Below, piece by piece: positions 9,752-37,067 of a stretch of DNA of 64,000 bases; the stretch's first letter is position 1; the number at the start of each line of letters is the position of its first letter. The notes under the pieces are model-generated. The model saw only the letters and a program-made list of their open reading frames with translations. It made no database searches and was not told the origin of the DNA. This DNA comes from Planctomycetota bacterium (lineage in GTDB: Bacteria; Planctomycetota; Planctomycetia; Pirellulales; Pirellulaceae): positions 124,001 to 188,000 of the forward strand of contig JAPLNI010000027.1 in NCBI GenBank assembly GCA_026692865.1. Direction: 5' to 3'. The translations under genes were made by a program, and so were the position numbers.

Positions 9752-12700
9752 ATGCAACTTGTAAAACTCCCAATCGTGGTCCGTGGGGCTCGCGAACATA
9801 ATCTCCAAAATGTATCGGTCGAGCTCCCGAGGAACCGATTAATCTGCTTCAGCGGCGTTTCGGGAAGCGGGAAGAGCTCGCTGGCCTTCGATACGATTTT
9901 TGCCGAAGGTCAGCGTCGGTATCTGGAAAGCCTCTCGACTTACGCGCGACAATTCATCGGGCAACTTCCCAAGCCGGACGTCGATTTTCTTTCAGGACTG
10001 AGCCCGTCGATTTCCATCTCGCAAAAATCGACCGGTCATAACCCTCGCAGCACCGTCGGTACGATGACGGAGATCAATGACTTTCTACGAGTTCTTTTCG
10101 CTCGAGTTGGAACGGGCTTTTGTCCAACTTGCGATTGTCCTATTACAGCCCAAACACGCGATCAAATTGTCGAACGAATTTTGCTCCTTCCACAAGGGCT
10201 AATGTATTTGTTAATGGCACCGATCGTGAGAAATCAAAAGGGGGAGTATAAGGACCTCTTCGAAGATCTTCGCAAGCAAGGTTTCAACCGCGCACGTGTC
10301 GATGGTCAGGTCGTGCTCCTGTCGGACCCGCCTCAACTGACCAAGCAGCTCAAGCATACGATTGAAGTCGTTGTCGATCGTCTGGACCTCGCAACAAGTG
10401 GACGCTCGCGAATCGCTGAAGCAGTCGATACCGCCATTCGCTTGGGTGAAGGAACCTTGCTTGTTGTTGCAATGAACGGTTCGAACACTTCATCTCAACA
10501 CGCACAACAAAAACGTTCAGACGAATCGAGCCCCGAAACGAAGTCCACCAAGATTCGCTCTTTAAAAAAGAAAACATCCGTGTCGCTTGCAAGTTCGACA
10601 CCAGATACGACCGATCAGGCTTCGACTGCTGAGGCGTTGAATCGTGAACGAGTTCAAGAAGGCGTCCAAGAAATTGTTTTCTCCGCTCACTACGCGTGTC
10701 CTTCATGCGGGGTTTCTTATCAAGCACCCAGTCCGCAGTTGCTTTCGTTCAACTCACCCCAAGGCATGTGTAAGGAGTGCAATGGTCTGGGTGAAATTTA
10801 TACGTTTGATATCTCGTTGTTAATTGCCGAGCCAACCAAATCGATTCGTGGTGGGGCGATCGCACTGTTTGGAAAATGGACGCGCCTTTCTCGCTGGACA
10901 CGTCAGCAATTCGAAGGAGTCGCCAGAGCGATCGAATCGGTGTTGGAACTGAAAGAGAAGTCGTTCCTGAAAACGCCTTGGAAGAATCTTCCCGTCGAAG
11001 CTCAGCAGCTTTTTCTTTACGGGACCGGAGACCGGACTATCGCGGTGACGCTACGAGGCGGAAAAAATCCTCGTCGAGTCAACTTGTCATTCTCTGGAGT
11101 GGTTGCTCAATTGCGATCTGCATGGAACGGTTTCAAAAACCCTCTGATGCGTAAGCAATATGAGAAGTACATGCATCAGTTGCCTTGTACAGGTTGTTCT
11201 GGTCAACGGTTAAATCGTCAAGCAAGATTTGTTCGGATTCAAGCGACTGTCGCAGAGCCAATATCAAAATCGCCTACCAAGCAAGTAATCCAACGCAAGA
11301 GTCGAAGTCAGACACGCGCGAAGTCGCTCGACAAATCCAGCGTAGCTATCAATGCGATCGAGCCCAGCAGATTCTTGTCGCTTCCTGATGTTGGCCGATT
11401 GCAATTGGCTGAGGCACTTGATTTCTTTTCCAACATTTCATTGACTGAAATACAACGTCAGATAGCTACTGAAGCATTGAAAGAAATTTGCACGCGGCTG
11501 GAATTTCTTCTGGAGGTAGGACTGGGGTATCTGTCGCTCGATCGTCCAGCACCATCACTTTCGGGAGGCGAATCGCAGCGGATTCGATTGGCTTCTCAAA
11601 TCGGCAGCGGGCTTGTTGGAGTGACCTACGTACTCGACGAACCTTCGATCGGTCTGCATCCTCGCGATAACGATCGATTGCTTAATGCGCTGAAACGTTT
11701 GCGAGATCTGGGTAATACCGTCTTAGTCGTGGAGCACGACGAGGACACGATGCATGCGGCAGACACAATCGTTGACTTTGGCCCTGGCCCTGGCGTTCGC
11801 GGAGGAAGGCTGATCGCTCAAGGCGACGCGGCAACGATCGCAGCGAACGAAGAAAGCGTCACTGGCGGCTACATCAGCGGTCGTTTGGTAGTTCCGCAAC
11901 CTACTACACGGCGTGTCGGGAATCGTAAAACGCTTCGAGTAACCGGCGCTACGCATCACAACCTGAAGAACATTTCAGTCGATTTTCCACTTGGTTGTTT
12001 CATCTGCGTTACAGGAGTTAGCGGTAGCGGCAAAAGTTCGCTTGTGACCGATATCGTAACACCGCTTCTACGTCGCGATCTCAATGGAGCCGAAGATACA
12101 CCCGGCGCGCATCTAGAATGCTCTGGTATCGAACACTTAGACAAGATAATCGATATTGATCAAAGCCCCATCGGAAGAACTCCACGAAGTAACCCTGCGA
12201 CCTACGTGAAAGTCTTCGATGAGATTCGAGATCTTTATTCCAAGTTGACGGAATCCAAGAAGCGTGGTTACCTACCAGGAAGATTTAGCTTCAACACAGA
12301 AGGTGGTCGATGCGGGGCATGTGAAGGTAACGGAGCAACGCGACTTGACATGGAGATGCTGGCTGATCTTTGGGTCACTTGTCCTGTGTGTAATGGACGG
12401 CGTTATGATCACGAGACTCTCCAAGTCTTATTCAAAGGCAAATCGATTGCCGACTGTTTGGAAATGGACATTCAGGAAGCATTACTCCACTTCGAAAGTA
12501 TCCCCAAAATTGCCGAGAAGCTTCAAACGCTTCACGAAGTAGGACTCGACTATCTCAAGCTTGGACAAAGTTCACCAACGCTCTCTGGCGGTGAAGCTCA
12601 ACGAATCAAGTTGGCGAAAGAATTGTCACGGCGATCTACTGGGAAGACGCTTTATGTCCTGGACGAACCGACTACGGGTTTGCATTTTCACGACATTGCA

Positions 12701-15700
12701 ATGTTGCTGAAAGTGCTTCAGAGTTTGGTTGATCGCGGCAATACGGTGATCGTCGTCGAGCATAACTTGGACTTGATTCAAGCTGCCGACTGGATCATCG
12801 ATCTCGGTCCAGAGGGAGGCGGTGGCGGTGGTGAGATCCTGGCCGAAGGTACTCCTGAAGAGATTGCGTGTTGTAAACAATCGCACACGGGACGGTCGCT
12901 TGCGAAGTACTTTGCGGATCAGAAGAGTAAGCAGACTGCTTTGGCTGCGCAATTGAAATTAGCCAAATCCGCGAAAGTCAAAAAGCTGAAGGCGTCTGAG
13001 AAACTCAATGCGAAACTGAACGCAGATCAGCAGGCGAACATGCTTGCAAAGTTGTCTGTGCAAGAGTCGCTGCCGTTGGTGGTCGAAGGTGCTGGGCTCC
13101 ACAACTTGCAAGATGTGAATTTGTCGCTCGAGCAAGGGAAGATGACTGTCTTCTGCGGGCAGAGTGGAAGCGGAAAAACGTCGATGGCGTTCGATACGAT
13201 TTACGCCGAAGGTCAACGACGCTTTGTTGAAAGCCTGAGTTCATATGCTCGGCAGTTTGTGGGTCAGATGCCCAAGCCGATTGTTAAAAAAATATCCGGA
13301 CTGTCACCCGCAGTTGCTTTGGAGCAGCGTGCTCTTGGGCACACGCCTCGTTCCACAGTTGGTACGGTCACGGAGATTTATGACTATCTACGAGTCTTGA
13401 TGGCAAGACTTGCAACGATGCACTGCCCCGTGTGTAAATCGGTCGTCGGTACGCAAACCATCGATCAGATCGTCGATCACGTAATGTCGCTACCAGCCAA
13501 GACGCGTATCGCCGTTCTCGCACCGCTTCAAAAATCGGGAACCACCGCGGGAAGAATGGTCGATGATATCTATTTAGATTACCTGCAAGGACAAGGATTC
13601 GTACGAGTTCGAATCGATGGAGTCACCATTCCCATCGCCGACCGATCGCCTCTGGTCGATAAAGGGAACCATGAAATCGAAATCGTTGTTGACCGTTTAG
13701 AGATTCAATCTAAGGACCGTTCTCGTATTGCCGAAAGCATCGAATCGGGACTTGATTTGGGTAAGGGAACAGTCCGGATCGCGATCTTTAGCGATACTCG
13801 TCCCGAGCCGCAGTGGGAGATTCATACGCATTCTCTTTCCTTATCCTGTAGCTCATGTGGATTGTCTTATAGCCAACTCTCACCACATAGCTTTTCCTTC
13901 AACACGCAACTGGGTTGGTGCGAAGATTGCGATGGGCTTGGAGTTCGACTGGGAACCAATCCAGCAGCGTTCTTCGATGCTTCGCGATCTTTAGATGAAG
14001 GTGGCATGTTGCTTTGGCCGGAGCTTACCAAAGGAGTTGCCGCAGAGACGAGCAAACGAATGCTCAAGGCGATTTGCGAAACGACAGGCATTCGTTCTGA
14101 TGTTCCGATCGGATCGATGTCATTGAAAGAGAAAAACGTTCTGCTCTTTGGTACACAAGACCAGTCTCACCATGTCGATGGCTTCTCGTTTCGATTTCGC
14201 GGTATCTACCCAGCGATGGATATTGCAGCCAGGTCGAGCCCCACTTTGCGAGTGAGATTGGAATCCTACACAGCGGAAGTCGAATGTCGAACTTGTAATG
14301 GCTCGCGCGTTCGTCCGGAAGCTGCACATGCAAAGTTCCGCGATCAAACGATTGCGGATTTTGTGGCGATGCCACTGATTAATCTTCTCAGCTTTGTTAA
14401 CGACTGCAAACTCGATGAACGTGAGCGTAAGATCGCGGGCGAGCTGATCCGTGAAGTCCAGCAGCGGTTATCCTTCCTCGTCGAAGTAGGACTCGATTAC
14501 CTCTCGCTTGGTCGTGCTGCCAACTCGCTCAGTGGCGGCGAGTCGCAGCGAATTCGACTCGCAGCTCAGCTCGGTAGTGGGCTTTGTGGCGTATTGTATA
14601 TACTTGACGAGCCGACCATTGGACTCCATCCGCGAGATAATCATCGACTTGTTACCGCACTTCATCGACTGCGTGATTTGGGAAACACGCTTATCGTCGT
14701 CGAGCACGATCGCGATGTGATTTCTGGTAGCGATTACCTATGCGATTTTGGTCCTGGAGCGGGCTATCTAGGTGGTCGTATTGTTTCCAGCGGCACACCC
14801 AAGGTCGTGGGAGCAGATCCAGCGAGTGTGACCGGACCATTCATTAGTGACCGTAAGTCGATTCCGATTCCATCGAATCGCCGCGAAGTTCCGATGGCTG
14901 CGGGCGAGCTCTTTGACGATGCGAGTTACAACGTTCAGTATCCAATGCGAATCGGCATTCGAGGTGCACGAGCCAATACGCTCCGAAGTGTCGACCTGGA
15001 TATTCCACTGGGCGTTTTGGTTGCAGTGACTGGGCCAAGCGGTTCAGGAAAAAGTAGTTTGATTAATGACCAACTCTATCCGCTGCTTGCACGTGCCTAT
15101 CATCGCGCCCATTTTAGCTCAAGGGGTAATGAATCAATCAAGGGGCTGCCTGGGCTTTCAAAAGTCATACGAGTCGATCAATCACCGATCGGGTCTACGC
15201 CTTCATCCAATCCGGCCACTTACACCGGAGTCTTCGATACGATTCGTGATTTATTTGGCAAACTACCGGATGCAAAAGCGCGAGGGTTTACTTCTCGACA
15301 ATTCAGTTTCAATGTTCCTGGAGGTCGATGTGAAAAATGTGAAGGCGTTGGTAAGTGCAAGATCGAGATGCATTTTTTACCAGACGTTTGGGTTGAATGT
15401 GATGCGTGTCATGGAAAGCGGTATACATCGGAAACGCTCAGCATTCGCTATCGTGGCAAGTCCATTTACGACGTTCTGCAAATGACCATTGACCATGCCT
15501 ATGAGCTCTTCATCAATCTGCCGCAAACGCGTCGAATTCTTTCGACGCTTCGCGATGTGGGCCTTGGCTATGTTTCGCTAGGCCAGCCAGCACCAACGCT
15601 CTCCGGTGGCGAAACGCAACGCGTAAAGCTCGCCTCTGAACTTGCGCGGCCATCGACAGGCGATACGATGTACTTGCTCGACGAACCGACAACCGGGTTG

Positions 15701-16597
15701 CACTTCGAAGACATCGCAAAGCTCCTTAAAGTCATGCACAGTCTGGTTGACTTGGGAAACACCGTCGTCGTGATCGAGCATAACTTGGACGTCATCAAGT
15801 CTGCTGATTGGGTGATCGACATGGGACCCGAAGCGGGATGGGGAGGTGGCCAAGTCGTTTATACAGGGACCCCGGAAGAATTGGTCGCTTATGCTGGTAT
15901 GGAACGCCAAAGTGTTGAGAAGCCAATCAAAAAGCGACGTTCCGCAAAAGCAGAAACATCGCAGAACAAACCCATGCTCCGAAGTTACACGGGAGAAGCT
16001 CTCGCGGAAGTTTTGAGTAAAGGCACCTACGAAAAGCGAGAGTTCTTTAATCCACTTGCCGAGAACTTACCAAGGCAAGGGGATATCACCATATCGCAAC
16101 TTGCCAAAGAGTCGCTTTCACCTTGGGAAATCGATGGTCGTAAGTGGCACCTCGAAACCAGCTTGACTCGCTCCGGTGCAACTCCGCGTTGGGATAGAAT
16201 GATGCTGAGAATGTTGACCGACCGGATCGAGGCTTCGGAGAAGCTGGGTGAGATCGTTTGGAACTCTAACAGCATGATCGAAGTCCCGGCACAAAAGAAA
16301 GGTCGCGGTTGGTTCTTACATGCCTTTACCGTCGAGGAGAATTGGCTGAAGCTCAAGTTTCGCATTCCTCGTAGTAGCTTTACCAAACAAAAGTTATTGG
16401 AAATATTTCAGCTCCCGCCGTTGTCGTCGCTTCCCGGTCTAAATTTGGTAAATAGAGATGCGAGAGTTACAGTGAGTGTCGGAGACGACTGGTTGGAATT
16501 AGAACTGAGACCTTATCTTCGTCACGAAATCGACAACGAAACCTTTTGGAATTGGTTAGACAAAGCAATACATCATTTTGCAGATGCGAGTTTTTAA
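9752..16597 (+). CDS. uvrA: double-length UvrA (two fused UvrA units plus novel C-terminal domain)
   Basis: UvrA is the damage-recognition ATPase of nucleotide excision repair. Standard UvrA is about 940-970 residues; this is 2281. Unit 1 has Walker A motifs at about residues 35 and 754 (GVSGSGKSS) and ABC signatures at about 603 and 944 (LSGGE-QRI-LA). Unit 2 repeats this at about 1136 (GQSGSGKT) and 1760 (GPSGSGKSS), with signatures at about 1593 and 1950. Each unit keeps its Cys4 zinc modules (for example CGACEG/CPVCNG and CEKCEG/CDACHG). Unit 1 carries two Lys/Ser-rich insertions (about 245-300 and 505-540). A charged linker (about 1045-1100) joins the units. Residues from about 2050 onward form a Lys-rich linker and a globular region of about 200 residues that I do not recognise. 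It may be an authentic repair protein or a transport/resistance-type UvrA paralogue. Confidence 0.93.
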   Translation: MQLVKLPIVVRGAREHNLQNVSVELPRNRLICFSGVSGSGKSSLAFDTIFAEGQRRYLESLSTYARQFIGQLPKPDVDFLSGLSPSISISQKSTGHNPRSTVGTMTEINDFLRVLFARVGTGFCPTCDCPITAQTRDQIVERILLLPQGLMYLLMAPIVRNQKGEYKDLFEDLRKQGFNRARVDGQVVLLSDPPQLTKQLKHTIEVVVDRLDLATSGRSRIAEAVDTAIRLGEGTLLVVAMNGSNTSSQHAQQKRSDESSPETKSTKIRSLKKKTSVSLASSTPDTTDQASTAEALNRERVQEGVQEIVFSAHYACPSCGVSYQAPSPQLLSFNSPQGMCKECNGLGEIYTFDISLLIAEPTKSIRGGAIALFGKWTRLSRWTRQQFEGVARAIESVLELKEKSFLKTPWKNLPVEAQQLFLYGTGDRTIAVTLRGGKNPRRVNLSFSGVVAQLRSAWNGFKNPLMRKQYEKYMHQLPCTGCSGQRLNRQARFVRIQATVAEPISKSPTKQVIQRKSRSQTRAKSLDKSSVAINAIEPSRFLSLPDVGRLQLAEALDFFSNISLTEIQRQIATEALKEICTRLEFLLEVGLGYLSLDRPAPSLSGGESQRIRLASQIGSGLVGVTYVLDEPSIGLHPRDNDRLLNALKRLRDLGNTVLVVEHDEDTMHAADTIVDFGPGPGVRGGRLIAQGDAATIAANEESVTGGYISGRLVVPQPTTRRVGNRKTLRVTGATHHNLKNISVDFPLGCFICVTGVSGSGKSSLVTDIVTPLLRRDLNGAEDTPGAHLECSGIEHLDKIIDIDQSPIGRTPRSNPATYVKVFDEIRDLYSKLTESKKRGYLPGRFSFNTEGGRCGACEGNGATRLDMEMLADLWVTCPVCNGRRYDHETLQVLFKGKSIADCLEMDIQEALLHFESIPKIAEKLQTLHEVGLDYLKLGQSSPTLSGGEAQRIKLAKELSRRSTGKTLYVLDEPTTGLHFHDIAMLLKVLQSLVDRGNTVIVVEHNLDLIQAADWIIDLGPEGGGGGGEILAEGTPEEIACCKQSHTGRSLAKYFADQKSKQTALAAQLKLAKSAKVKKLKASEKLNAKLNADQQANMLAKLSVQESLPLVVEGAGLHNLQDVNLSLEQGKMTVFCGQSGSGKTSMAFDTIYAEGQRRFVESLSSYARQFVGQMPKPIVKKISGLSPAVALEQRALGHTPRSTVGTVTEIYDYLRVLMARLATMHCPVCKSVVGTQTIDQIVDHVMSLPAKTRIAVLAPLQKSGTTAGRMVDDIYLDYLQGQGFVRVRIDGVTIPIADRSPLVDKGNHEIEIVVDRLEIQSKDRSRIAESIESGLDLGKGTVRIAIFSDTRPEPQWEIHTHSLSLSCSSCGLSYSQLSPHSFSFNTQLGWCEDCDGLGVRLGTNPAAFFDASRSLDEGGMLLWPELTKGVAAETSKRMLKAICETTGIRSDVPIGSMSLKEKNVLLFGTQDQSHHVDGFSFRFRGIYPAMDIAARSSPTLRVRLESYTAEVECRTCNGSRVRPEAAHAKFRDQTIADFVAMPLINLLSFVNDCKLDERERKIAGELIREVQQRLSFLVEVGLDYLSLGRAANSLSGGESQRIRLAAQLGSGLCGVLYILDEPTIGLHPRDNHRLVTALHRLRDLGNTLIVVEHDRDVISGSDYLCDFGPGAGYLGGRIVSSGTPKVVGADPASVTGPFISDRKSIPIPSNRREVPMAAGELFDDASYNVQYPMRIGIRGARANTLRSVDLDIPLGVLVAVTGPSGSGKSSLINDQLYPLLARAYHRAHFSSRGNESIKGLPGLSKVIRVDQSPIGSTPSSNPATYTGVFDTIRDLFGKLPDAKARGFTSRQFSFNVPGGRCEKCEGVGKCKIEMHFLPDVWVECDACHGKRYTSETLSIRYRGKSIYDVLQMTIDHAYELFINLPQTRRILSTLRDVGLGYVSLGQPAPTLSGGETQRVKLASELARPSTGDTMYLLDEPTTGLHFEDIAKLLKVMHSLVDLGNTVVVIEHNLDVIKSADWVIDMGPEAGWGGGQVVYTGTPEELVAYAGMERQSVEKPIKKRRSAKAETSQNKPMLRSYTGEALAEVLSKGTYEKREFFNPLAENLPRQGDITISQLAKESLSPWEIDGRKWHLETSLTRSGATPRWDRMMLRMLTDRIEASEKLGEIVWNSNSMIEVPAQKKGRGWFLHAFTVEENWLKLKFRIPRSSFTKQKLLEIFQLPPLSSLPGLNLVNRDARVTVSVGDDWLELELRPYLRHEIDNETFWNWLDKAIHHFADASF

Positions 16598-32264: not shown

Positions 32265-35200
32265 ATGTCAGGTGGAAACACAGTGAGTCAGAAAATGACC
32301 AAGCCATTACGTGGTGTTAGTAGCCTATTATTTGGGCGTTATTGGGTTAACGTTTGTTCGGGAAAATTCGGGTTCGCCAAATCCACCGAGTCCGAGGTTT
32401 CGAGCAACCGAGCGATCGCCTTCGAACCGCTTGAAATGCGACAGTTGATGGCTGCCGATTTCTTCGACAGCGCCGCCATGGCGGCCGAAGCTAACGGGCT
32501 GAATAACTACCTGTCCACTGCGGGTAGCGAAGTCGCAGCATCTTCACAATCCATCACAACGCAAACCAACGCGGAAGGCGAAGCTGCCCAAGACCTCGTT
32601 GCTTTTGCCAAGTCACTGCGCGATGCAGGTGTTATTTTCTTTGGTGCTGATTGGTGTCCGAACTGTGCGCAGCAGAAGCGACTCTTCGAAGATGGTGCGC
32701 AGTTCCTAAATGTTGTAGAAGTCACCAACCCCGATCGAACCGCTAACGCCCGAGGAATTGCGGAAAACGTGACGGTCTATCCGACTTGGCAGTTCCAAAA
32801 TGGATCGCGTGAAGCGCGTGTTTTAACTCTCGCGCAACTTTCAACCGCTTCGGGAATCGCCATTCCCACTTCCAGCACTCCATCGATTGCCCCGATCGCT
32901 GCTACGACTGTCTTGCGAGGATCGCCGCTTCACATTCCCGTCGACGCATATGACCCAAACGGTAATCCATTGACGATCACGGTAACCAGTAGCAATCCAT
33001 CGGCTGTGAGTGCCGAGGTTCTCGCCGGAAACCAAAGTGCAATTGTTCGAACAGCAAACTTTGGCGATATGGTTTTCGAGCTCTTCAGTTCCGATGCGCC
33101 CCGTCCTGTGAACCAATTTTCGACGCTTGCCAATCAGGGCTTCTACGATACGGTCGGCACTAACCGAATGATTTTCCATCGCGTGATCCAAAACTTCGTC
33201 ATTCAAGGCGGCGATCCAACTGGGACCGGCACAGGCGGTTCACCGCTCCCGAATTTCGATGATCAATTCAATCTGAATCTCCAGCACAATCGATCTGGCA
33301 TTTTGTCGTATGCGAAAAGCTCGGATGACACTAATGATTCGCAGTTCTTCGTCACTGCTGGGCCCACCAGGAATCTCGACTTTAACCACTCCATATTCGG
33401 TCAATTAGTCGAAGGCGATTCAACACGTCAAGGAATTGCGAGAACATCAGTCAACTCCAGCGACAAACCAATCAATGATGTGGTTATTGAGTCCATCGAT
33501 ATCTTTAACGATACCGAGAATGGTTTGGTAAGGCTGCGAGCTATTGGTGCTGCCGGCGCCACGTCAACAATCACCGTAACTGCGACAGACACCGAAGGGA
33601 ATCAAACATCTCAAACGTTTGTCGTAACCGTAGCGAACGATTCCAGCAACGGTTCGCCATTTCTCAATGACATTCCAGCGATCAACGCGACCGCCGGCCA
33701 AACAACCACCTACCAATTGGCAGCTCAAGATAAAGAAGGCGATACTCGTATCTTCTCCGCCGTGCTTGCAAATGGTGTTACCGCTCCGTTTACATCCAAC
33801 AGCGTCTCCGTCAACTCGGCAACTGGTCTGCTTTCGATCACTCCTCCAGCTAGCTTTACCGGTAGCTTTCAAGTACGAGCCTCTGTTCGCCAAAGTGCAG
33901 ACGCAAACGCCAACGATCAATTTGATACGCAACTGATCACCGTGAACGTTGCCTCTACCGCACCGGCAGCACCAACCAGTATCGATCTTGATACGGCCAG
34001 CGATTCCGGAGCAAGCACTTCCGACAATGTGACTCGAAATGGGACACTTTCATTTACAGTGAGCGGAACAGTAATTGGTGCAACGGTGACCCTGAAGAGC
34101 GGTACCAACACTTTAGGAAGTGCAACTGCGACCGGAACTACCACGACAATCACAACGGCGAACCTTGCCGCTCTTGGTGATGGAACGAGAGTTATCACTG
34201 CCACCCAAACGGTCAATTCGGTTGAAAGCATTGCATCGCCAGCGTTGTCCGTAACGTTCGATGCGACTCAACCAGTATCGTTAGGTACAAATCTATTCCC
34301 AGCATCCATTCCGTCTGAGCAGGCCTTCAGCGTAAATCTTTTTCATCCTGAAGAAGGTGCAGGATTGGTCTACAGCTTAACCAATGCACCCTCGGGGATG
34401 ACCATCAATGCATCCACTGGTGTAGTTGCTTGGACTCCCACCGCGGGACAAATTGGCAATAACACGTTTACAGTGAATTTGACTGATATAGCAGGAAACG
34501 TTCGTAGCGAAAGCTTCTCGATGAATGTCGCGGCTGCCGCTCTTGGTGCAATCACGATCCGATTAGTTGATTTGAATAACGCACCCATTACTTCGGTTAC
34601 GATCGGGCAAGTTTTCAAAGTACAGCTTGTCGCAAGAGATCTTCGAACGTCTGGTAACGACGGAGTTTTTGCCGCTTACGCAGATTTCAACTACAACAGC
34701 GCGGTAGTGGCTTTAGAAGGCTCCTCACCCATTACTCGCCTTAACGGTTTCGACGTGTCGCCTGATGGCAATACCTCGACCCTAGGTTTGATCAACGAGT
34801 TAGGAGGAGCAAGATCCAGCTCCACCCCTTCCGGTGCAGCAGGAATCGTATTCGCAGAAGTTCAATTCCGAGCGACCGCCGCAGGCCAAGCGAACTTCAC
34901 AACCGACGCTGCTGAGACTCAGGGACGGGACTTCCTAGTTTACGGTGCGCAAGTCGCCGTCGATAAAGAACGGATAAGCTTCGGAAGTAACTCGCTAGCT
35001 GTTGGTCGCAATTTTACGCTTGTCGATGACCTCTTTAATTTCAATGAAGACTCCTCTAATAATAATGTAGATGTCTTGGCCAACGATACGATCGTTCCGG
35101 CAACCAACACGGTCATCTCGATTGTTTCTGTAGGCACTCCAAGTGCCGGCGGTTTGCTCACCATCGCATCCGACAACCGATCCTTACGCTACACGCCAGT

Positions 35201-37067
35201 CACGAATTACAACGGGGGAGAAGTTTTTACTTATACTGTTCGAGATAACACGGGCGCTGAAGCAACGGGAACCGTAACCATACAAGTTCAACCCGTAAAC
35301 GATCCTCCTGTTGCGACAGCGGACTCTTACACGTTTATCGAAGGTAGTTCAGATAACTTCCTAGAAGTACTAGTAAACGATTCATCCGGTGTCGATCAGG
35401 GTGAAACGCTGACAGTTTCGCAAGTCGGCACGCCCAGCCAGGGCGGAGCCGCTCGTATCAACGGTGGATCGAACGCAATTCTTTATACACCGCGAACTGG
35501 ATTCGTCGGTACGGAAACGCTGACCTATACGGTCCGCGACAATAACGGCGGAACCGCTTCGACAACTGTTACCATTTTGGTCAACCCTCGCGTTCCGCCT
35601 CCGGTGGCGGGCAACGATAGCTTCACCGTTGTGGAAGACGCGGCAATCGCCGAGTTCAATGTGCTTACAAACGATACTCCGAATGTGACGGGACGTGCGC
35701 TCAGCGTTGTCTCACCGAGGGCCACTCAGGGGGGAACCGTTTCGGTTACGACCGATGGACTTCGGCTTCGATATGCTCCGAGAGCAAACTTTAGCGGAAC
35801 GGAGATCGTGACGTACACGCTTCAAGAAACGGGTGGAAGTACTGCAACCGGTACTGTTACATTTGCGGTCACCGCAGTGAATGATGCTCCAATAGCAGTT
35901 GACGACAATCTAACTGTATTGTCGCAGCCAAATCAGATTCTGAATGTCTTGGCGAACGACACAGATGTCGATTCAGGAGACGTGCTGACGATTACGGCAA
36001 TTACCCAGCCATCGACAGGCCAAGGAACAGTCGCGATTCAAAATAATCGAATCGTGTACTCGGCTCCTAACACCGATTTCACTGGGACAGTGACGTTCAC
36101 GTATACGGCGTCCGATGCGGCCGGTCTGACAGATACAGCTACCGTTCAGTTAACCGTCCAGAATTTCACTCCACGAACGATCAGTGGACAGCTTAATTCT
36201 GGTGCGACTGGTTCCGGATCGACAGGTACAGTGCCACAAGGCAACATCGCAGCGATCTCCGGCTTAGGTCTCAACTTTACTGGCACTTCGTTTGATGGGT
36301 CACTTGTCAATCAAAGAATCACAGCAGATGTTGACGGCGACTTTGCAGTTCCAAATCTCGCGCCTGGCAACTACAGCTTCTCGCTTCCGACCCTACCATT
36401 CGCGACCAATCCTGCGAGTTCGATATCAGTCCAATCGGCTTTCGCAGACGGCAATATGTCGGGGGTAAGTCTTCCTGTGGGTAACGTTCAAGCCAGATAC
36501 ATCGACATCCGTGATTTTACATCGGCAAGATTTAATCGCGGATTTATGGTAGCGATCACTCCAGGTGAAACAGCTCAGCATTGGGTCGCTGCGTATGGCG
36601 CATGGCGTGACTATAGCAGTCTTACCATGACCTTGAACACAGCCGGAACTACGTTAACGCTTCGTGCAACAAATGCTGCTGGACAAGCCTTCACTAGTAC
36701 AATTGCTGTCTCAGGCAACAATGCGTCGACACGAGCAACCGAAGGAAATGCTCGCTTGATTCGTGTACTGTCTACACCAAGTCAAGTGACACTTACACCA
36801 GTGACTTCGGGTTCCAGCGCTTCATCAGTATCGAACAATTCAGTCTTGCCTCGTTCGATTTCAACCAACGCTTCAACGGCTGAAGGAGAAAGTTCGCCAT
36901 CTGTTGCGAAAAGAACAGATGCGGCCATGTCGCAAGTCAACCCGACGATCGAGGTCTCCTCTAGCTTGGCATCGTCGCTTGCAAACAGTAACCAATCGCA
37001 AATGACATCTAACTACGACAGCGTTTACGCAGAAGATCTTGATGAGCTTCTGAAACGAAAAGGTTAG
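32265..37067 (+). CDS. giant surface protein: LEPR-XLL-like, thioredoxin-like, cyclophilin, Ig/cadherin-like repeats
   Basis: 1600 residues. The N-terminus has FEPLEMRQLMAADFF (about 53-67), matching the LEPR-XLL-type motif of planctomycete secreted giants. Residues about 105-205 resemble thioredoxin with a WCPNC active site (C131, C134). Residues about 258-412 are a cyclophilin-type peptidyl-prolyl isomerase (MIFHRVIQNFVIQGGDP, FDDQF, GILSYAKS, SQFFVTAG). Then come Ig/cadherin-like modules, a cohesin-like segment (FAAYADFNYNSAVVAL) and about four cadherin-like repeats (about 915-1305) marked by ND-x8-V and YTP-x-YNG-x-E-x-FTYTVRD. The C-terminal about 300 residues are unassigned. ATG 32265 has no clear ribosome site; GTG 32283 has AGGTGG 7 bases upstream and may be the real start. 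Likely exported and cell-surface located. Confidence 0.88.
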   Translation: MSGGNTVSQKMTKPLRGVSSLLFGRYWVNVCSGKFGFAKSTESEVSSNRAIAFEPLEMRQLMAADFFDSAAMAAEANGLNNYLSTAGSEVAASSQSITTQTNAEGEAAQDLVAFAKSLRDAGVIFFGADWCPNCAQQKRLFEDGAQFLNVVEVTNPDRTANARGIAENVTVYPTWQFQNGSREARVLTLAQLSTASGIAIPTSSTPSIAPIAATTVLRGSPLHIPVDAYDPNGNPLTITVTSSNPSAVSAEVLAGNQSAIVRTANFGDMVFELFSSDAPRPVNQFSTLANQGFYDTVGTNRMIFHRVIQNFVIQGGDPTGTGTGGSPLPNFDDQFNLNLQHNRSGILSYAKSSDDTNDSQFFVTAGPTRNLDFNHSIFGQLVEGDSTRQGIARTSVNSSDKPINDVVIESIDIFNDTENGLVRLRAIGAAGATSTITVTATDTEGNQTSQTFVVTVANDSSNGSPFLNDIPAINATAGQTTTYQLAAQDKEGDTRIFSAVLANGVTAPFTSNSVSVNSATGLLSITPPASFTGSFQVRASVRQSADANANDQFDTQLITVNVASTAPAAPTSIDLDTASDSGASTSDNVTRNGTLSFTVSGTVIGATVTLKSGTNTLGSATATGTTTTITTANLAALGDGTRVITATQTVNSVESIASPALSVTFDATQPVSLGTNLFPASIPSEQAFSVNLFHPEEGAGLVYSLTNAPSGMTINASTGVVAWTPTAGQIGNNTFTVNLTDIAGNVRSESFSMNVAAAALGAITIRLVDLNNAPITSVTIGQVFKVQLVARDLRTSGNDGVFAAYADFNYNSAVVALEGSSPITRLNGFDVSPDGNTSTLGLINELGGARSSSTPSGAAGIVFAEVQFRATAAGQANFTTDAAETQGRDFLVYGAQVAVDKERISFGSNSLAVGRNFTLVDDLFNFNEDSSNNNVDVLANDTIVPATNTVISIVSVGTPSAGGLLTIASDNRSLRYTPVTNYNGGEVFTYTVRDNTGAEATGTVTIQVQPVNDPPVATADSYTFIEGSSDNFLEVLVNDSSGVDQGETLTVSQVGTPSQGGAARINGGSNAILYTPRTGFVGTETLTYTVRDNNGGTASTTVTILVNPRVPPPVAGNDSFTVVEDAAIAEFNVLTNDTPNVTGRALSVVSPRATQGGTVSVTTDGLRLRYAPRANFSGTEIVTYTLQETGGSTATGTVTFAVTAVNDAPIAVDDNLTVLSQPNQILNVLANDTDVDSGDVLTITAITQPSTGQGTVAIQNNRIVYSAPNTDFTGTVTFTYTASDAAGLTDTATVQLTVQNFTPRTISGQLNSGATGSGSTGTVPQGNIAAISGLGLNFTGTSFDGSLVNQRITADVDGDFAVPNLAPGNYSFSLPTLPFATNPASSISVQSAFADGNMSGVSLPVGNVQARYIDIRDFTSARFNRGFMVAITPGETAQHWVAAYGAWRDYSSLTMTLNTAGTTLTLRATNAAGQAFTSTIAVSGNNASTRATEGNARLIRVLSTPSQVTLTPVTSGSSASSVSNNSVLPRSISTNASTAEGESSPSVAKRTDAAMSQVNPTIEVSSSLASSLANSNQSQMTSNYDSVYAEDLDELLKRKG

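Follow-up and report, generated by a model that had tools for sequence, protein, structure and literature searches.

Why should two domains of the foldase type sit in one giant chain that probably belongs to the cell surface? Folding catalysts are normally small proteins, soluble or membrane-bound. The window, that is the whole stretch of DNA that was analysed (64,000 nucleotides of a Pirellulaceae genome, contig JAPLNI010000027.1, positions 124,001 to 188,000), holds a gene for a 1600 aa protein (32265..37067, + strand, as are all features of the gene given below) which carries a thioredoxin domain and a cyclophilin, and of the 68 Pirellulaceae genera sampled, 38 have this combination in a giant chain that is probably exposed at the surface, many of the carriers being bacteria of ponds and of the sea. 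The answer that we favour, with a probability of roughly 45%, is a secreted scaffold whose foldase-type domains are predicted to handle other envelope proteins. The main rival to this is a structural or binding role.

The gene is a stand-alone, single continuous open reading frame which runs from ATG to stop over 1600 codons with no internal stop, in agreement with an earlier note on this DNA that had described one 1600-residue protein. Orthologues measure 1540–1690 aa and have their parts in identical order: leader with LEPR-XLL-like motif, EGE tripeptide, thioredoxin domain, half of an Ig domain, cyclophilin, the other Ig half, three Ig-like domains, cohesin-fold domain, four tandem-95 repeats, C-terminal beta domains and finally a low-confidence tail. 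A gene-joining or fusion artefact, raised earlier for the N-terminal part, was ruled out, since this order is identical across many Pirellulaceae genera including Rhodopirellula baltica. We found no conservation of the neighbourhood with the window that would point to an operon or a partner, neighbours being clade-local only, and a description of the protein was not found in literature searches. Elsewhere in the window, a 2281-aa ORF (9752-16594, + strand) matches ABC ATPases several times, has two UvrA interaction domains and looks like a tandem (doubled) UvrA. On sequence and model together, the anatomy of the 1600-residue protein is secure.

The leader is basic and carries a cysteine, C31. 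The motif FEPLEMRQLMA (aa 53-63, 32421..32453), which we take as a planctomycete export motif, contains LEMRQLM at aa 56 and so matches LExR-x-L(L/M) near the N-terminus. The LEPR-XLL-like motif claimed for this protein was recovered by regular expression in 99 of 139 relatives, compared to 0.5% of shuffled sequences, though PF07595 (LEPR-XLL) scores only 17.6 bits here, under the Pfam cut-off of 25.5 (27.2 bits in the orthologue L059). Between leader and thioredoxin domain lies an EGE tripeptide (aa 104-106, 32574..32582), and a second one is found inside the tail, near the C-terminus (aa 1540, 36882-36890). EGE is enriched about 9-fold in relatives (367 occurrences for 41 expected), at sites right after the leader and near the C-terminus, and could serve as a signal for sorting or processing. 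The tripeptide also occurs 40-125 residues from the C-terminus in six large ORFs of the same genome (L214, L215, L216, L220, L225 and L226), mostly LEPR-XLL giants.

The thioredoxin-fold domain (aa 110-204, 32592..32876) carries the active-site-like motif WCPNC (aa 130-134, 32652..32666) and a cis-proline loop YPTW with P173 as the cis-Pro. Its Pfam thioredoxin score is sub-threshold (21.9 bits, cut-off 23.5). Comparison by phmmer with 3kp8, the thioredoxin domain of a Synechococcus VKOR, gave 1e-9, and a profile of 26 relatives matched 3kp8 at 1.6e-18, the next best being ordinary thioredoxins at 1.5e-4. An AF2 model of aa 96-470 reached a mean pLDDT of 91 and a pTM of 0.89, with pLDDT >90 nearly throughout the thioredoxin domain. 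A structure search with this head model gave a list filled by cyclophilins, and hence no independent placement of the thioredoxin and Ig parts. The thioredoxin-like region with WCPNC that had been proposed is thus confirmed by the 3kp8 profile, WCPNC and P173, and the fold of the 105-205 region, on which the proposal had been made to stand or fall, is supported by both profile and model. As judged from the phmmer and profile matches to 3kp8, the domain is of the VKOR-linked type.

C131 and C134 are, apart from C31, the only cysteines of the 1600-residue chain. Nearly all CXXC-bearing relatives are likewise cysteine-free beyond the leader except for the CXXC, with one clear exception (L048). 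It follows that the motif cannot make disulfides in its own repeats or stalk, and that any disulfide client is another molecule. Disulfide folding of its own repeats was therefore rejected as a function, and with it the disulfide half of the earlier suggestion that the protein may help fold its own repeats.

Among 45 thioredoxin domains, hand-picked for diversity with paralogues included, both CXXC cysteines are present in 34, neither in 11 and exactly one in none; loci L105-L184, which came from a scan that demanded WC..C, were for that reason left out. On a tree of the Ig-cyclophilin part, made by a quick method with cysteine columns excluded and leaving many open forks, presence and loss of the CXXC need about seven changes, at least four of which are forced by well supported (starred) branches. 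Paired retention or loss is expected if both cysteines work as a pair, and the pattern is read here as the repeated loss of a working pair. In the genus g163 (L075-L078), WDADT replaces WCxxC (DxxT for CXXC) in 4/4 members examined, and two of the four have also lost cyclophilin R55/Q63, giving double pseudoenzymes on a kept architecture.

The cyclophilin domain (aa 257-416, 33033..33512) is matched by PF00160 over aa 261-411 with an E-value of 2.5e-35, covering profile positions 4-157 of 159, and comparison of the AF2 model with PDB entries gave Z ~25 and an rmsd of 1.4-1.7 A for the best matches. The full cyclophilin-type prolyl isomerase claimed before is in this way upheld as a domain. Inspection of the active sites found, in human CypA numbering with the residue of this protein in brackets, H54/R55 (H305/R306), F60 (F311), Q63 (Q314), Q111 (Q360), F113 (F362), L122 (L371) and H126 (H375), as well as C131/C134 in the thioredoxin domain; the substituted positions are M61 to V, N102 to K and W121 to N. 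Of 61 aligned modules from several families, 58-60 retain R55, F60, Q63, Q111, F113 and H126, and two members have lost catalytic residues. In L066 (5791-10827) and L087 (5893-13701), an insertion of ~110 residues, alike in both, lies between the Q111/F113 strand and the L122 loop.

The cyclophilin is flanked by two halves of one Ig domain. The first, strands A-D (aa 206-256, 32880..33032), matches Big_9 profile positions 3-45 and the second, strands E-G (aa 417-462, 33513..33650), He_PIG positions 70-96. Each half alone is under cut-off. Once spliced they match a single Big_9 domain over positions 3-89 of 89 with 27.4 bits (cut-off 23.6), and the reversed order gave 20.5 bits in two pieces. 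Joined flanks from four relatives, two of them without thioredoxin domain, scored 35.0, 30.3, 25.4 and 25.1 bits. Strand order in the AF2 model is consistent with nesting. Profiles and model agree that the cyclophilin is nested inside the Ig domain, and the two Ig halves would be in contact across it. A single protein of L085 (1892-6376) contains two Ig-cyclophilin modules, of which the first comes with a thioredoxin domain devoid of cysteines.

A cyclophilin set within an Ig domain in a stalk of repeats is also what could be expected if the thioredoxin and cyclophilin folds served an adhesin or matrix protein as rigid blocks, for construction or for binding, and not as enzymes, the cyclophilin binding proline-containing peptides without turnover and the thioredoxin acting as a spacer. 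The thioredoxin fold, with its cis-Pro and W, does outlive the cysteines in 11 of the 45 domains, including a paralogue in the same genome and 4/4 sampled g163, and two g163 members keep the cyclophilin domain despite loss of the R55/Q63 positions. In the other modules, however, the cyclophilin active-site residues are near-invariant, even though identity over the remainder of the module falls to ~45-60%, and the cysteines are kept or lost only together, which plain spacers would not need. We hold this alternative to be possible, if somewhat doubtful.

Three further Ig-like domains (Big_9-like, Big_13 and He_PIG by Pfam; aa ~466-756, 33660..34532) lead to a cohesin-fold domain (aa 757-916, 34533..35012). 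The complete nine-stranded fold superimposes on 2vo8 with Z 15.5 and 2.1 A over 133 of 135 residues. By sequence, PF00963 gives 16.5 bits, under the cut-off of 24.1, and among orthologues reaches E<0.1 in 14/30 (best 1.6e-5); a profile of the domain run against PDB sequences retrieved no cohesin, fold comparison alone making the match. The cohesin-like stretch of the earlier description is accordingly a cohesin fold, for which Pfam alone is weak. The host genome has 20 dockerin matches in ~16 ORFs, and a cohesin-like domain in only three ORFs. It also encodes, on contig C56, a 742-aa paralogue with WTSET for WCPNC and a dockerin at its end. Such a second, shorter copy ending in a dockerin exists in five genera, this one included; four of the five lack the cohesin-like domain, and L082 has both cohesin-like domain and dockerin. 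In the tree, the C56 copy and the 1600-aa gene are sisters (support 99), as are L082 and L052 (100), which implies at least two separate duplications. In L061 (2060 aa), three cohesin-like domains surround a thioredoxin-cyclophilin module that is redox-dead.

For freshwater planctomycetes, a complex of cohesin and dockerin proteins, the ‘planctosome’, has been put forward as a hypothesis (PMC6461901). The cohesin fold, the ~16 dockerin ORFs and the dockerin-ended paralogues of five genera would, with this model as precedent, agree with a protein that is mainly the cohesin scaffold of a ‘planctosome’-like assembly, its head modules being accessories of lineage-specific use. We find this very improbable: two other cohesin-like proteins are present in the host genome, dockerin binding is only putative, and in most orthologues the cyclophilin part is better conserved (~47-67% identity) than the cohesin (27-44%).

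Beyond the cohesin fold lie four cadherin-like tandem-95 repeats (aa ~918-1300, 35016..36164; PF17963 1.5e-64, NF012211 2e-56), so that the Ig/cadherin-like modules noted before are recovered as Big_9, Big_13, He_PIG and tandem-95 domains. They are followed by two or three fast-evolving beta domains (aa ~1301-1510, 36165..36794), confidently modelled, with a mean column identity of 36% and weak CarboxypepD_reg/SdrD_B matches in some orthologues. The tail (36795..37064) is mostly of low confidence in AF2 (pLDDT 30-40 for aa ~1516-1590), and no family match in it points to a known surface anchor. What had been called a long unassigned C-terminus is therefore mostly resolved, into the four Big_9/tandem-95 repeats and the beta domains, and the description holds for the tail.

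The question of how widely the thioredoxin-cyclophilin pair occurs in planctomycete giants was answered by searching genus representatives: the pair recurs, the module being found at E<1e-50 in the 38 genera out of 68, with G057 and G065 matching only from the Ig domain onward. In the rest of the order, most relatives lack the thioredoxin part, their match beginning only at the Ig domain. In a sample of the phylum, matches outside the order came only from nine genomes, all of genus g163. Among the best 80 GTDB loci whose titles name a taxon, all are planctomycetes, Rhodopirellula baltica included; the scan was highly specific, asking for WC..C, and distant pairs in other phyla could escape it. 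In proteins of family f7, which have ~1150 aa, the module lies at aa ~650-750, and in L065 (2644 aa) it lies at aa 1013. A position at the head of a surface fibre, as first described, thus applies to the 1600-residue protein and not in general. Taken together, the protein is probably a conserved, exported Pirellulaceae scaffold.

Planctomycete walls are, by long-standing descriptions, rich in protein and contain cysteine-rich YTV proteins. We detected YTV proteins in 148 of 149 Pirellulaceae genomes, two examples having 69-77 cysteines (10-13% Cys); passages on cell-wall preparations in PMC8567305 cite YTV-type cysteine-rich proteins from this material. YTV proteins are inferred candidate clients of the thioredoxin domain. 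They are present with or without the module and so do not depend on it. Their median count is 14 with the module and 10 without (p 0.0004; per Mb p 0.07; relatedness uncorrected), and as a correlate of the module this count was set aside, since genome size and relatedness confound it. In the host genome, the other LEPR-XLL giants and the dockerin proteins have 0-4 cysteines; cysteine-free giants are L214 (2304-19409, 5702 aa), L215 (692-18064, 5791 aa) and L220 (1026-16898, 5291 aa). Neither VKOR nor DsbB was detected in the host genome, which has one DsbD-type reductase. VKOR occurs in 57 of 149 Pirellulaceae genomes and shows no association with the module among genera (13/38 vs 12/30, Fisher p 0.8). 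Undetected in this genome and unassociated with the module, it was discarded as the redox partner here.

A CXXC forming the sole cysteines past the leader, a very cysteine-rich wall protein family ubiquitous in Pirellulaceae and a host genome in which a known oxidase partner was not found could also be accommodated by a redox switch or covalent clip, where a mixed disulfide would fix the scaffold to the YTV layer under oxidising conditions and the cyclophilin would be a separate binder. One cysteine would suffice for this, yet single-cysteine forms number 0/45. Moreover, thioredoxin CXXC motifs resolve mixed disulfides quickly. We regard such a clip as quite unlikely.

In the preferred reading, the handling of other envelope proteins, the scaffold would be located at the cell surface or in the outer envelope, with its head acting on other proteins of the envelope. 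The cyclophilin would speed proline isomerisation, perhaps in Ig/cadherin giants too, its own chain among them. The CXXC would exchange thiols and disulfides in cysteine-bearing clients, for which the YTV wall proteins are one candidate. Proteins with a dockerin, among them the scaffold's own paralogue that ends in one, may be drawn to the scaffold by the cohesin-fold domain. The thioredoxin part can be dispensed with and was switched off repeatedly, and the Ig-nested cyclophilin is the kept core. This reading is supported by the near-invariant cyclophilin residues, the paired CXXC, the chain devoid of other cysteines past the leader, the ubiquity of YTV proteins, the cohesin fold found together with dockerin ORFs, and the dockerin-ended short copies. 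It is weakened by VKOR and DsbB going undetected in the genome, by VKOR not tracking the module, by the independence of YTV proteins from it, by the few cysteines of other giants and dockerin proteins, and by the two members that have lost cyclophilin catalytic residues. A more elaborate form, which we think unlikely, would be a surface folding station in which the cohesin scaffold presents thioredoxin and Ig-nested cyclophilin on the outside of the cell, recruits partners that end in a dockerin, its duplicated and redox-dead copy among them, and, with neither VKOR nor DsbB, keeps up or reshapes a protein wall rich in disulfides. The protein is a concrete candidate for managing the disulfides of the YTV-rich planctomycete wall, and two patterns lend themselves to bench tests: the CXXC pair lost several times from thioredoxin folds that persist, and the recurrent combination of a long copy bearing a cohesin with a short copy ending in a dockerin.

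How does this protein compare with known systems? With the bacterial VKOR thioredoxin (Synechococcus VKORC1/Trx, 3kp8/3kp9/4nv2) it shares the sequence profile, WCPxC and the PTW cis-proline loop. In contrast to it, the VKOR membrane domain is absent from the protein, no VKOR is detectable in the genome, and the CXXC is often lost in relatives. Fold and catalytic residues are those of cyclophilin-type PPIases (PPIL1/spliceosomal-like, bacterial PpiA/PpiB; PF00160), whereas here the domain is nested between Ig strands D and E, and N102 is K and W121 is N/H/F/S, from which weak cyclosporin binding is predicted. The cohesin fold is as complete as in known cohesin modules (2vo8 and 2jh2 of Clostridium perfringens; cellulosomal type I/II), but sequence identity is ~16%, Pfam is sub-threshold, the domain is not part of a cellulosome and dockerin binding is putative. 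Like the ‘planctosome’ (PMC6461901), the system is planctomycete and non-cellulosomal, its cohesins and dockerins belonging to large secreted chains; unlike that model, which handles peptidases, the scaffold bears a thioredoxin domain and a cyclophilin. Finally, with the LEPR-XLL-leader tandem-95/cadherin-like giants it has in common the leader motif, the repeat stalk and a cysteine-poor chain, and to their repeat array it adds foldase-type domains and a cohesin.
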